Source of the DNA: a virus
DNA length: 22,050 bases
Direction: 5' to 3' (one strand)
Virus record (IMG/VR): IMGVR_UViG_3300037847_003424
Span: 1-22,050 of that record
The position numbers and the translations under genes were made by a program. The notes below the pieces were generated by a model. The model made no database searches. It saw only the letters and a program-made list of their open reading frames with translations, and had not been told where the DNA came from. The stretch's first letter is position 1. Each line of letters opens with the position of its first letter. Positions 8,341 to 15,168 of the stretch are shown piece after piece.

Positions 8341-9060
8341 ATGCCTTTACCAAAGATTGCCACACCAACATATGAGTTGGAATTGCCCTCTACAGGAAAG
8401 AACTTAAAGTATAGACCATTTCTAGTAAAGGAAGAGAAACTATTGGTTCTCGCACTAGAAAGTGAGAACACCAAAGAGATTACAACTGCTATCAAGAATG
8501 TAATCAAGTCTTGTGTTCTTACTAGAGGTGTGAAAATTGAAACTCTTCCTACGTTTGATATTGAGTATCTGTTCCTGAATATCAGAGGCAAGTCTGTCGG
8601 TGAAGAAGTTGAAGTTAATATCATCTGCCCCGATGATGGTGAGACATATGCTCCTGTGAAAATTAATATTGATGAAGTTGAAGTCAAGAAGAGTGATGAA
8701 CACTCAAACAAAATTAAGTTAGATGAAAACCTTGTGATGGAGATGAAGTATCCTTCTTTGGATCAGTTCATCAAGTCCAACTTTGACTTCTCTGAGGATG
8801 ATGCCATGGATCAGTCATTTGATATGGTGGCAACTTGTATTGATAAAATCTATAATGCAGAAGAAGTATGGACAGCATCTGACTGTTCCAAGAAAGAACT
8901 TATTGATTTCTTAGAGCAGATGAACTCATCTCAATTTAAAGAAATTGAAAAGTTCTTTGAGACAATGCCTAAACTTTCTCATGAAGTAAAGGTGACAAAC
9001 CCTAATACCAAGGTTGAAAGCACCATTGTGCTGGAGGGACTCTCAAGTTTTTTCGCATAG
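8341..9060 (+). CDS. 26: gp26-like baseplate hub assembly protein (T4 baseplate family)
   Basis: Member of the T4 gp26 baseplate family, needed for hub assembly; T4 gp26 is 208 aa, this protein 239. It opens MPLPKIATPTYELELPSTGKNLKYRPFLVKEEKLLVLALES, a pattern strongly characteristic of the family, followed by TRGVKIETLPTFDIEYLFLNIRGKSVGE and an acidic middle. The C-terminal half is helical (CSKKELIDFLEQMNSSQFKEIEKFF) and ends with a beta strand and SSFFA. It resembles tail-assembly chaperones of other phages in its place before the tape measure. A phased T TTT TTC heptamer two codons before the stop suggests that a fraction of ribosomes shift to -1 and add 61 residues (6 plus the 55 of the next ORF). 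Confidence 0.88.
   Translation: MPLPKIATPTYELELPSTGKNLKYRPFLVKEEKLLVLALESENTKEITTAIKNVIKSCVLTRGVKIETLPTFDIEYLFLNIRGKSVGEEVEVNIICPDDGETYAPVKINIDEVEVKKSDEHSNKIKLDENLVMEMKYPSLDQFIKSNFDFSEDDAMDQSFDMVATCIDKIYNAEEVWTASDCSKKELIDFLEQMNSSQFKEIEKFFETMPKLSHEVKVTNPNTKVESTIVLEGLSSFFA
9048..9054 (+). promoter_or_regulatory. Candidate -1 ribosomal frameshift heptamer T TTT TTC at the end of gp26
   Basis: The zero frame reads AGT TTT TTC GCA TAG, so the heptamer has the X XXY YYZ phasing. After a -1 slip the frame continues CGC ATA GGT CTT TCC CAT ATG into the next ORF. Just downstream AGGTCT (9059-9064) can pair with GGACCT (9074-9079), with one G-U pair and a 9-base loop, a modest stem with a 4-base spacer. 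The -1 frame is closed only at 9015, upstream of the heptamer. Confidence 0.6.
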
Positions 9061-9071
9061 GTCTTTCCCAT

Positions 9072-9239
9072 ATGGACCTTGAGTCCTATTATAAGTTAAA
9101 CTTCTCCTTGATACAGTACCATAAATATTCATTAACGGAGATTGAAAACTTGATACCTTGGGAAAGGGACATTTATGTTGAATTGTTAAAGGCACACTTA
9201 GAAGAAGAGAAACAGAAACAACAACAAAATGGGACCTGA
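9072..9239 (+). CDS. 55-aa ORF after gp26; probable C-terminal part of a gp26 frameshift fusion
   Basis: The protein starts MDLESYYKLNFSLIQYHKYS and continues LTEIENLIPWERDIYVELL, then an E/K/Q-rich tail to ..QQNGT. The compact pattern (aromatic-rich helix, then LTEIENLIPWERDIY) resembles the second component of phage tail-assembly chaperone pairs and small proteins that follow gp26 in cyanophages, possibly the gp51 position of T4. No Shine-Dalgarno is visible before the ATG at 9072, and the frame is open upstream through the gp26 end to 9018. Expression by -1 frameshift from gp26 is therefore a good alternative to independent initiation; the fusion would be 299 aa. It overlaps the next gene's start by 11 bases. 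Whether it is made alone, fused or both cannot be decided here. Confidence 0.7.
   Translation: MDLESYYKLNFSLIQYHKYSLTEIENLIPWERDIYVELLKAHLEEEKQKQQQNGT
9120..9127 (+). promoter_or_regulatory. Possible late promoter CATAAATA inside the 55-aa ORF
   Basis: CATAAATA fits NATAAATA and lies about 100 bases before the 625-aa tail protein start. It also encodes His-Lys-Tyr of the overlapping ORF, so it may be chance. Confidence 0.3.
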
Positions 9240-11106
9240 CGAACTCGACGATCTACTAGCAAGTATTAGAGCAGAAGCCAAGGAAGAATCCTCTGGTGGT
9301 GCTCTTGCTTTGTATGAGGGTACGAGAGAGACAGATCTTGTTAGTGAAAGTATAGACGAGAGAATATTAAGACTGATAGGTCTTGAAGACGTATTTGATA
9401 TTGACTACGGAACATATAGCACCCTGCTCAGGGAGAGACTTGCTGCGGCAAGGATGACTAATTCCGAAATAGCATCTGATGAAGATGAACTATTGCGGGA
9501 TGAGTTTAGAAGAGTAAGGGGAAAGGTTGGTCGCTTCAAGATAAGCAAGAAGAAGATATCTGCTGGCGGTCTTGGTGTAGCAGGACAGATACCTATCTCA
9601 TCAAATAAGTTTTTCCTAGCATCAAAGGCAGTTGTTCCTCCTGATGCTGGCAAGGAAGATAGTGGGGAGAAGACATCTCCAGAAATAATGGATAAGTTGG
9701 ATCAACTTATTGAAGCAATAAAGAAAGATAATAAGATAGAAGAAAAGAAACAAGAGACCGAAAGAAGGCAGAAGCAAAACAAGAGAAGAGAGGAGAGAGA
9801 AAATAGGTTAGAATCAATATCAAAACCTGTGCAGAGAATGATGAAAAAGGTGGTAGCACCTTTTCAGAATATTCTTGATCGTATTATGAAGTTTGTTAAG
9901 TTTACCCTACTTGGGTTTGCATTCAACAAATTAATGAACTGGTTTGCAGATCCTAAGAACCAGAAAAAAATAGAAGTTATTGGTAGGTTCTTGAAGGACT
10001 GGTGGCCAACTTTACTTGGTGCTGCAGCACTTTTCTTCACACCATTAGGAAAACTTGTGAAGGGTGTTGTTTCATTGATGCGTTTTGCTATTCCTGCTTT
10101 ACTTAGAATTGCAAGACGCAACCCATACGTTGCTATTGCCACTCTTGGTGCAGCTGCCATTAGTGGCATTATTGCAAGCACTTTACCGAAAAAGGATGAA
10201 AAAGTTGCTGACCAAGAGGCATTTGATTCTGGGCAAGATTTAACTTTACCATCTTTTAATCGAGGTGGCATGAATATAAGTATGGGTGGTCTTCGTGATA
10301 CTGATGGAAGAATAACAAATACTAGTGGTTTAGATATTACTGGAGCAGGACCAGACACACAGTTGATTGCTGCTGCTCCTGGAGAAATTGTCATTCCAAA
10401 AGATACCGTAGAAATGTACGGTTCTGATTACTTTATGAATATGATTAGGTCTTCTGGAAAGACTGGTGTTCCTCAGATGATAAATGGTATTCAACTTGCT
10501 AACCAAGGTGGTATGGTAGGTGGGTTAAGACTTCCTGGCACTGGAAGATTTGTGCAACCCAGAACAGAATATTCCTCTAGACAATATGGTAGAGATAGTA
10601 CATATCCAACGCGGTCACAGTTTAGGTTCTTAGGTATTCCTATCCCAGGGACAGAAAGAATAGAACCAGCAACTGGTCGTCGTAATACAACCCCATATAA
10701 TACTTCTCCTACGAGGAGAAACTTTGTTGGCAACAATACTTCTCCTAAGAGCAGAAGCTTTGTTGGTGATGCATTCGTAAACTTTGGTAGAAATATTCAG
10801 AGTATAAGAAACTACGGAAGGCGTCAGGAAGAGATGATGCGACAGTTGGGTGTAGAACCTGATGGTTATACTAACTTGAGAGGTAACCCAGTGATGGGTC
10901 CTCAGTCAAGAGTTGTGCCTGTTGGAACTCCAGAGGTTACAACTAAAATGCAAACCATTGTTCTTCCTCCAACAACAATGCAAGCAAAGAAACCAACAAT
11001 ACCAACCTTCACTGGGACAAAGATACCTGAGTTTAGTATCACTTCTAGAAATACTCATAGGTCTGTTGTTTCTTCTGTTCTTGGCGTATCAGATCTGGTA
11101 GGATAA
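9229..11106 (+). CDS. Tape-measure-like tail/hub protein 1 (625 aa)
   Basis: Probable tail tape measure or internal hub component (T4 gp29 position, right after the gp26 pair). The order of parts is: acidic N-terminus; a highly charged coiled coil at about 155-200; the motif ILDRIMKFVKF-TLLGFAFN at 215-233; hydrophobic helices at 260-320 (TLLGAAALFF, AIATLGAAAISGIIAS), which could cross a membrane; then a Gly-rich linker with AAPGEIVIPKDTVEMYGSDYF at 381-402, a pattern seen in many phage tape measures; and a disordered Arg/Thr-rich C-terminus. The length suits a roughly 100-nm tail (T4 gp29 is 590 aa). It overlaps the preceding ORF by 11 bases and precedes a second protein that shares the FTLLGF motif. 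Either could be the true ruler; I favour neither strongly. Confidence 0.65.
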   Translation: MGPDELDDLLASIRAEAKEESSGGALALYEGTRETDLVSESIDERILRLIGLEDVFDIDYGTYSTLLRERLAAARMTNSEIASDEDELLRDEFRRVRGKVGRFKISKKKISAGGLGVAGQIPISSNKFFLASKAVVPPDAGKEDSGEKTSPEIMDKLDQLIEAIKKDNKIEEKKQETERRQKQNKRREERENRLESISKPVQRMMKKVVAPFQNILDRIMKFVKFTLLGFAFNKLMNWFADPKNQKKIEVIGRFLKDWWPTLLGAAALFFTPLGKLVKGVVSLMRFAIPALLRIARRNPYVAIATLGAAAISGIIASTLPKKDEKVADQEAFDSGQDLTLPSFNRGGMNISMGGLRDTDGRITNTSGLDITGAGPDTQLIAAAPGEIVIPKDTVEMYGSDYFMNMIRSSGKTGVPQMINGIQLANQGGMVGGLRLPGTGRFVQPRTEYSSRQYGRDSTYPTRSQFRFLGIPIPGTERIEPATGRRNTTPYNTSPTRRNFVGNNTSPKSRSFVGDAFVNFGRNIQSIRNYGRRQEEMMRQLGVEPDGYTNLRGNPVMGPQSRVVPVGTPEVTTKMQTIVLPPTTMQAKKPTIPTFTGTKIPEFSITSRNTHRSVVSSVLGVSDLVG

Positions 11107-11107
11107 T

Positions 11108-13618
11108 ATGGCATCTATTAGTTCTAAAAAACTGTTACCATCTACTGAAAAAAAGGAAAAGGTATTTCTTGTTCCTTACACTAATATCATTCCGTCAACA
11201 CCCAAACTTGGTGGAGTAAAACCTGCTGAAGGAAAAAAAGAAACTGTCAAAACTTCAGAGGTAAATGAAAAACTTTCTGAAGTTGTTAAATTTTTTAGAT
11301 ATAGTTTATTACTGAAAGAAAGAGATAAAAGAAGAAAAAGGAGAGAGCAAGAGAGAAAAAGATTTGAAGAGAGTGAGAGTAAGTTAGAGACAAGAAAACT
11401 AGGAAAAAAACAACAGCAAGAGAAACTTGCTGCAAAGATACCTGGTTCTACTATTTTTGATAGACTTGCAAGGTTTACTGGGTTTACTTTACTTGGGTTT
11501 ATATTTAATAACTTCTCCAATCTTTTACCAGGTTTAAACTCCATTGGTAGTTTTTTAGCACCTGCTGCTAAAGGTATTGGTCTTTTTGCTGATAGTTTAT
11601 TTGAAGGTGTTGTTGATTGGATTGATAAAGGATATAAAGCATACGATGCTGTAGGTAAGATAGTAAAAGACCTTGGTGGTGAAAACTATGAAAGACTATT
11701 CAATGAGTTTTCTGGTGCATTAAATCTTGTTGTAAATGGTGCTTTACTTGCAGGTGCTGCTGGTCTTCGTGGTGGTTTATTTAAACCTAAAACAACAATA
11801 ATCGCAACACTTAAAGAAGCAAAAGGTGGACTTAGTGGCGCAACTGCTGCTGGTAGACTCTCTCCGGAGATGCAGCAGCAGATTTTATCTTCAACAATAA
11901 CAAAGAGAACAGATGTTCTCTCAAAAAGAGGACAAGCTAGAGATGTAATTGCCAGAGCTAGATTTAAACTTAAGTCTGCTAAAACAAAGGCACAGCAAGA
12001 AGCTATTGCTGAAGAGCTTCTTGAGAGTTCTTTTGAATCAGGAAAGGGAAAGAGGACAAGAGGATTTGGCACGGATCTTGCTGCGGGTGAAAGGGGAGCG
12101 TTTACTGTTCTCTCAAGAAGACCAACAAGAAAAATTCTAAAAGCAGAGCGTGATCTTTTAAGAAAGGTTACTATTGGCGGTTTTGGTGGTGTAGAGGAAA
12201 CAAGGACCTTAGTTCAAAAAGTATTTGATACTAAAAGAGAAAAGTTTGTAAAACTAAGAAAGAAGTCAACCAAAGGAGTTCCCATAACAGAAACTGTTGA
12301 TGAATTTTTTGACGATGAAATGTTTAGGGCTCCGACTGAACAAAAAAGAAGAACAACGAAAAAATCAGAAATTAAAAATATCAAGAAAGGACAGCCAGTA
12401 TTCAGTTCAAAAACTGGAAAGAGAACTGTTGAACTTGCTATACCTGGTTTGGGAAGAAAGAGATTTAATCCAGCAGTTGCTGATACTTTGGAATATATGG
12501 CAAAGACATACGGTACTAACGATATGTCTCTTGTGGCTGCATTTGAAGATCCAGATTTTTATGGCGATATTATTTCAAAAGAACGTAGAGCAATGTTAAA
12601 AGCTAAGGGAAAGAGGATGACTTCACGTCCCTTAAAACCAACAGCAGCAAAATTACAACCAAGAGGTGTTGATATTCCTACACAGCAAGCAGCAAAAACT
12701 GCCGCAAGAACTGCCGGCAGAGGTTCTAGAATTATCCCATTTATTGGACCGTTATTTGACTTTGTAATTAGCGTTGCTCTTGGAGACCCTCCAGGAGAAG
12801 CAGCTGCTGGTGCAATTGGTGCAGCATTGGGTGGTTTTGTTGGTACGTTATTAGTTGGTTCAGGTACTTTTGGTCTCGGTGCAATACTTGGTGGTGCTAT
12901 TGGAGGATTTGTTGGTGATCTTATCGGTAGATCATTGTATAAGGCATCAGTAGAAATGCTAGGATTTAAGAAAGATAAAAAAGGATATAACCAGGGTGGT
13001 GTTGTTGCCTCAAGGCAGATAAAAAGAGAGACGAAACCAAAGGAAGATACTATAAAGACAGTATCTCCTGTAGGGTTACAATCACGCTTCTCTGAAAATG
13101 ATTTAAAAACTCTTTACGGAGACTCTGTAGGAATACTAGGTAAAATATCTGGTATTATGGCTTCTCCTGGTGGGTTTATTGGAAGTATAATGTCTTCTTC
13201 AATCAACCTATTATTTGGTCAGAAGTTTGACGATAGGTTACTGAGTTATATTAGACAAACTTTTGGTGCAGGAGTTGAGAGTAATGTCAGATCATCTGTT
13301 GATACTGCAGTAAGAAATCTTGAATTTTTCCTTGCCTTTGGAAAAGACTCTCAACAAACTAAGTTAGTACCTACACCTAAAAGAACAAGGACTTTCATGA
13401 CAGGTCCTGCACCAGGAGATGCACTGGAGAGAAGACAAGGGGAAACTCCTAGACCTACTGGTTTAGATCCAAGTATTCCTATGGCTGATGATGAATATGT
13501 GCTCCCTGATGGTAGTATTCTTAAACCAGGTATGGAGGTTGGTTCATTGCAAATGACTCCAACATATGCAAAACATATGGAGTTTACATATGCAATTCAA
13601 CCTGTGATGGTTGGTTAA
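11108..13618 (+). CDS. Tape-measure-like tail/hub protein 2 (836 aa)
   Basis: Large virion protein just 1 base after the preceding gene and built similarly. It has a short Lys-rich N-terminus, an Arg/Glu coiled coil at about 60-110 (KERDKRRKRREQERKRFEES), and the motif IFDRLARFTGF-TLLGFIFN at 116-134. A long basic helical region (200-500) follows, then a Gly/Ala-rich hydrophobic segment at about 540-617 (GAALGGFVGTLLVGSG, LGAILGGAIGGFVGDLIG), which resembles membrane-active parts of tape measures. The C-terminus contains NQGGVV and ends in VLPDGSILKPGMEVGSLQMTP. A role in tail length, DNA channel formation or membrane crossing is likely from context (before gp27 and the gp5-like gene). I cannot say which of the two proteins corresponds to T4 gp29. 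The gene is certain, the role inferred. Confidence 0.65.
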   Translation: MASISSKKLLPSTEKKEKVFLVPYTNIIPSTPKLGGVKPAEGKKETVKTSEVNEKLSEVVKFFRYSLLLKERDKRRKRREQERKRFEESESKLETRKLGKKQQQEKLAAKIPGSTIFDRLARFTGFTLLGFIFNNFSNLLPGLNSIGSFLAPAAKGIGLFADSLFEGVVDWIDKGYKAYDAVGKIVKDLGGENYERLFNEFSGALNLVVNGALLAGAAGLRGGLFKPKTTIIATLKEAKGGLSGATAAGRLSPEMQQQILSSTITKRTDVLSKRGQARDVIARARFKLKSAKTKAQQEAIAEELLESSFESGKGKRTRGFGTDLAAGERGAFTVLSRRPTRKILKAERDLLRKVTIGGFGGVEETRTLVQKVFDTKREKFVKLRKKSTKGVPITETVDEFFDDEMFRAPTEQKRRTTKKSEIKNIKKGQPVFSSKTGKRTVELAIPGLGRKRFNPAVADTLEYMAKTYGTNDMSLVAAFEDPDFYGDIISKERRAMLKAKGKRMTSRPLKPTAAKLQPRGVDIPTQQAAKTAARTAGRGSRIIPFIGPLFDFVISVALGDPPGEAAAGAIGAALGGFVGTLLVGSGTFGLGAILGGAIGGFVGDLIGRSLYKASVEMLGFKKDKKGYNQGGVVASRQIKRETKPKEDTIKTVSPVGLQSRFSENDLKTLYGDSVGILGKISGIMASPGGFIGSIMSSSINLLFGQKFDDRLLSYIRQTFGAGVESNVRSSVDTAVRNLEFFLAFGKDSQQTKLVPTPKRTRTFMTGPAPGDALERRQGETPRPTGLDPSIPMADDEYVLPDGSILKPGMEVGSLQMTPTYAKHMEFTYAIQPVMVG

Positions 13619-14940: not shown

Positions 14941-15168
14941 ATGGAAAATATTGAAGCACACATCGAGAAGGATAAACAAATTCTTGATGACCCACAAACA
15001 AATCCACAGATGCGTCGTCACATCGAGGGCGAACTGCATGACCTAGAAGAGTATGTAGAGCATCATAAAGAAGAAATTGAAGCAGGTGACCATCACGATC
15101 CATCAGCACTTGAACTCTATTGTGATCAAGAACCTGGCGCACCTGAGTGTAAAATTCACGATAACTGA
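14941..15168 (+). CDS. cp12: CP12-like Calvin-cycle regulatory protein (auxiliary metabolic gene)
   Basis: CP12 is a small redox-switched protein that binds GAPDH and phosphoribulokinase and shuts the Calvin cycle; phage copies are thought to steer carbon to the pentose phosphate pathway for nucleotide synthesis. The 75-aa product ends ALELYCDQEPGAPECKIHDN, the CP12 C-terminal signature: LExYC, eight residues, then C (Cys61 and Cys70), then a basic residue and an acidic end. The middle EGELHDLEEYVEHH fits the helical CP12 core. The N-terminal cysteine pair of many plant and cyanobacterial CP12s is absent. A strong ribosome site AAGGAG (14927-14932) lies 8 bases before the ATG. It sits between gp27 and the gp5-like gene, with its stop sharing one base with the latter's start. 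Confidence 0.85.
   Translation: MENIEAHIEKDKQILDDPQTNPQMRRHIEGELHDLEEYVEHHKEEIEAGDHHDPSALELYCDQEPGAPECKIHDN

Follow-up and report, generated by a model that had tools for sequence, protein, structure and literature searches.

A phased T TTT TTC heptamer conserved at the end of gp26 in a cyanophage and other T4-like phages: a tail assembly chaperone very probably made in two versions by ribosomal slippage

The DNA analysed here, referred to below as the window, comprises 22,050 nt of IMG/VR record IMGVR_UViG_3300037847_003424 and comes from a marine virus of cyanobacteria (cyanophage). It harbours a gene for gp26 and, just behind it, a small ORF, which raises the question of whether these are two genes or two parts of a single one. 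In the public records that we examined, from cyanophages as well as other T4-like phages, gp26 and "gp51" appear as two genes, or the second is missing; in related phages, the small ORF is named gp51, is called hypothetical, or is left unannotated. On the sequence evidence presented below, a -1 ribosomal slip very probably gives this virus a single tail chaperone in two versions. The features concerned are listed in Table 1.

Table 1. Coordinates of the features at and around the gp26 junction, in positions of the window
Feature	Positions	Strand	Basis
gp26 (239 aa), putative short form of the chaperone for tail (baseplate hub) assembly	8341..9060	+	PF12322, phrog_150, hhalign to T4 gp26
Slippery heptamer T TTT TTC, X XXY YYZ phase	9048..9054	+	Sequence; T TTT TT(C/T) in 152/152 distinct junctions
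Extension in the -1 frame (FFRIGLSHMDLESYY..., 63 aa counted from the slip), predicted C-terminal domain of the long form	9048..9239	+	Open frame; phrog_634; purifying selection in start-less relatives; alignment with the T4 gp51 C-terminus
55-aa ORF, "gp51" in relatives' records; its ATG at 9072 is a possible independent start, probably not required	9072..9239	+	ORF within the -1 frame; no ATG among extension codons 1-20 in 62/150 junctions
Position of the clade hairpin (GGTCC-ATAT-GGACC in relatives)	9065..9078	+	Window keeps 2/5 pairs; alternative AGGTC (9059-9063) / GACCT (9075-9079)
Next gene, 625 aa, candidate client, tape-measure-like	9229..11106	+	phrog_35029, weak tape-measure match; S-SM2 homologue

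The last codons of gp26 read ...CTC TCA AGT TTT TTC GCA TAG, so that a T TTT TTC heptamer lies in exact phase, as an earlier note on this DNA had claimed, and is separated from the stop by a single codon (GCA). Read in the -1 frame, the sequence is open from 9018 up to a stop codon at 9237-9239, and the predicted product of a slip counts 236 + 63 = 299 residues. All coordinates in the earlier note, including the opening of the -1 frame at 9018 and the length of the 299-aa fusion, agree with the sequence. Irrespective of phase, TTTTTTC is of ordinary abundance in the window (15 occurrences on both strands versus about 10.7 expected), and the case therefore stands on phase and conservation.

With regard to conservation, 80 IMG/VR loci with gp26 identities of 70-82% all end in TTT TTC with a T before it. 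A wider set of 152 distinct junctions, spanning Kyanoviridae and other T4-like phages, was obtained from a second IMG/VR scan and from reference phages, namely, Pelagibacter phage Mosig, Caulobacter phage Cr30, Sinorhizobium phage phiM19, Pseudomonas phage pf16, Aeromonas phages CC2 and 65, Stenotrophomonas phage Ps15, Delftia phage PhiW-14, Vibrio phage nt-1, S-RIM2, S-CAM8, and S-SM2; few loci came from scans that used the Cr30 and CC2 proteins as queries. Every one of the 152 carries T TTT TT(C/T), ending in TTC in 135 cases and in TTT in 17, together with an open -1 frame, and the distance from the heptamer to the stop ranges from 0 to 8 codons. Elsewhere in the same gp26 genes, the codon pairs for FF (n = 150) are TTC-TTT in 90 instances, TTT-TTT in 50, TTC-TTC in 5, and TTT-TTC in 5. 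The phase, place, and conservation of the heptamer are thus exceptional compared with chance. In some loci (L097-L101, L107, L108, L110, L112, L116, L117, L119, L128, L138, and L142), the gp26 frame continues for 8 codons past the heptamer up to its stop, so that this stretch would be translated in both frames. Outside the 152, the one exception encountered, Vibrio phage VAP7 (Ackermannviridae; L085 1600-1630) reads GTT TTT CGC TAATG and has no phased heptamer; a stop-start overlap or a slip of one tRNA may operate there.

The extension, where readable to its stop, measures 58-71 residues. Among the 150 junctions whose extension reaches the stop, 62 contain no ATG among the 20 codons that follow the slip, and 52 contain neither ATG, GTG, nor TTG there, these sequences being related by descent and the counts not representing independent events. 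In the 52 start-less junctions, pN/pS amounts to 0.37 for the -1 frame versus 1.08 and 1.38 for the remaining two, and third positions are the most variable. Such constraint on a -1 frame devoid of start codons is a prediction of frameshifting, not of a separate gene. Furthermore, the -1 frame shows conservation and purifying selection at the residues upstream of the ATG position as well. The extension matches phrog_634, "baseplate hub assembly catalyst" (E 3.9e-29), over a region that takes in the residues before the ATG, and also the C-terminal end of the phrog_150 profile; its predicted structure is all-helical. The comparison of relatives suggested in the earlier note thus came out with the heptamer and the open -1 frame kept and the ATG not conserved.

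The relation to T4 bears on the same question. The window gp26 matches PF12322 (E 2e-76) and phrog_150 (E 1.4e-82). In hhalign comparisons, the short form aligns with T4 gp26 (E 2.6e-23) up to the junction, where the alignment ends, and for the fusion and the T4 gp51 family, the alignment (E 4.8e-20) covers residues 19-287 and is unbroken across the junction. T4 gp51 and T4 gp26 are themselves related (E 4e-19 in a profile comparison); phrog_150 is common to both, and phrog_634 corresponds to the C-terminal part of T4 gp51. In line with the earlier note, gp26 and gp51 are separate genes in T4, where they are neighbours on opposite strands, gp51 being a single ORF. Since the short form resembles T4 gp26 and the long one T4 gp51, T4 has two paralogues, without a frameshift, where other phages, including that of the window, would use one frameshifted gene. 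These profile alignments and the common PHROG families also lend support to the analogy with G/GT-type chaperones drawn in the earlier note. T4 gp26 and gp51 are listed as chaperones of hub assembly, the latter being required although absent from the particle (PMC3004832). Sullivan et al. (2010) described cyanophage gp51 as about one fifth the length of T4 gp51, lacking its first ~200 residues (PMC3037559); a single frameshifted gene would account for this difference. Frameshifting and gene duplication, as two routes to a short and a long chaperone, offer a natural comparison.

Downstream of the gp26 stop, the clade of the window often carries GGTCC-ATAT-GGACC, or the compensated variants GATCC/GGATC and GGTTC/GAACC. 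Of all scanned column pairs, the highest excess of pairing over expectation falls on this stem (columns 20 and 27). Its five pairs all form in 47 of 79 clade sequences, versus 0-1 with the 3' arm displaced by 1-3 bases and 31.0 +/- 2.3 when codons for the same amino acid are permuted across sequences (0 of 5000 permutations at or above 47), statistics that are inflated by the relatedness of the sequences. Other lineages present different hairpins near the same place, e.g. GCCTC...GAGGC. The window's own copy is decayed. The earlier note had placed a stem at 9059-9064 with 9074-9079; AGGTC can indeed pair with GACCT there, but the predicted minimum fold is a different one, and the local fold of the window is no better than that of shuffled sequences (z -0.62, 48 of 200). 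An Rfam search at the junction gave no match. The differences between lineages and the decay in the window indicate that the hairpin is optional, and a role as optional stimulator of the slip is plausible for that of the clade. We can tentatively go one step further, in a scenario that we consider possible though doubtful: located about 10 bases past the heptamer, with the ATG in its loop and 3' arm, the clade hairpin could both promote the slip and mask initiation, other lineages having built hairpins of their own at a similar distance, and the phage of the window being in the course of losing or rebuilding its copy.

The competing explanations can now be weighed. A sequencing or assembly error splitting one continuous gene would find some ground in the fact that T-runs are error-prone and that T4 gp51 is a single ORF; its probability is negligible, and it was ruled out, as the same run and frame break recur in 152 distinct junctions, including finished isolate genomes. 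Two separate proteins would be made if a 55-aa gp51 were translated from the ATG at 9072, through termination-reinitiation or internal initiation, the heptamer being incidental. This ATG sits only 11 bases past the gp26 stop, a separate gene is annotated at this place in the records of several relatives, and TGATG or TAATG overlaps occur in some relatives (PhiW-14, Ps15, and nt-1). The earlier note had stated that the small ORF has no visible ribosome site; an SD scan nevertheless shows a marginal AGG, pairing with the anti-SD at about -3.1 kcal/mol. The argument was weak in any case, since gp26 and several other genes of the window have either no SD match or one no better than that of ATG 9072. 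SD sequences being weak or absent in several genes of the window, their absence is no evidence against independent translation, and with its marginal AGG, ATG 9072 could allow reinitiation. As the only route to the extension, it is nonetheless very improbable: an ATG is missing from 62 of the 150 junctions counted above, and any ATG, GTG, or TTG from 52, the residues preceding the ATG position are conserved and constrained in the -1 frame, the phase of the heptamer is invariant, and T4 gp51 joins the domain of the extension to one resembling gp26.

Frameshifting and initiation might also coexist in the clade of the window, the former giving the long form and ATG 9072 some free C-terminal domain. 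Members of the clade often have one ATG, in some cases two, at this position, where the mean predicted SD pairing is about -2.4 kcal/mol. The corresponding residue, however, falls within a conserved peptide, H-M-D-L, the ATG would be hidden in the covarying hairpin found in this clade, and sister clades manage without such a codon. We regard such a dual route as unlikely, although less so than two entirely separate proteins.

We therefore favour, with high confidence, a single frameshifted chaperone gene giving a short and a long form, as far as sequence comparison can establish it. According to this proposal, gp26 and the small "gp51" ORF would constitute one tail assembly chaperone gene, in which most ribosomes would halt at 9058-9060 and release the 239-aa short form. 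A minority would slip by -1 at T TTT TTC, the tRNAs on TTT in the P site and on TTC in the A site re-pairing with TTT and TTT, and would read on to 9237-9239, yielding the 299-aa long form with its added helical C-terminal domain. Slippage would presumably occur at a low fixed ratio; the two forms would act jointly on downstream tape-measure or hub proteins, and both would be absent from the finished virion.

In lambda (gpG/gpGT) and P2 (E/E+E'), a short protein, a -1 slip just before its stop, and a C-terminal extension are found upstream of tail genes; the layout of the window is alike, whereas the slippery sites and the proteins are different. Among T4-like phages, the frameshift is reportedly conserved in several groups, and T4 is said to use genes 26 and 51 for the two forms. 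Vladimirov, Gautam and Davidson (Virology 2022, 566:9-15) dealt with the tail assembly chaperones of T4-like phages, designated TAC-N and TAC-NC. By the accounts of citing papers, the window has the same layout, with nothing different in kind, and agrees with the published work. The frameshift interpretation is thus already published in outline, and the present locus is a new, solid example of a known scheme, not a new kind of system; what this analysis adds is the lineage-specific covarying hairpin after the stop and the start-less relatives. A frameshift in the tail assembly chaperone has also been argued for Vandenendeviridae, represented by Pseudomonas phage Adele (PMC12846349). As in the window, the -1 frame is open in all genomes and a T-run is conserved at the end of the short gene, but the motif is GTTTTT instead of a phased T TTT TTC, and the phage family is another one (PMC12846349).

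As to structure, the gp26 model (pLDDT 87.7) gave nothing significant in a PDB fold search, the HK97 chaperone 2ob9 being among the most probable matches without reaching significance (prob 0.51-0.54, E 1.6-1.9, 56-62 alignment columns). A viral fold search returned other baseplate hub and hub assembly proteins of T4-like phages. A search of solved structures by sequence, with gp26 and the extension, gave no meaningful match.

By analogy with T4 gp26 and gp51, the short and long forms would act on tape-measure or hub proteins whose genes come next. The last 11 bases of the extension also belong to the 625-aa gene, and the product of this gene as well as that of 11108-13618 are large tail-region proteins with weak tape-measure matches. 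A sequence comparison of the 625-aa protein with part of T4 gp29 gave no match. In Cr30, a gene annotated as tape measure comes after one more small gene. The two large proteins share a segment (residues 136-255 of the first versus 37-150 of the second, 33% identity, E 1.8e-7), which suggests an old partial duplication. Further along the window, a 75-aa ORF (14941-15168) matching phrog_627 is preceded by a strong Shine-Dalgarno sequence; at the same place, the S-SM2 record has CP12, a photosynthesis-linked metabolic gene within the tail region.
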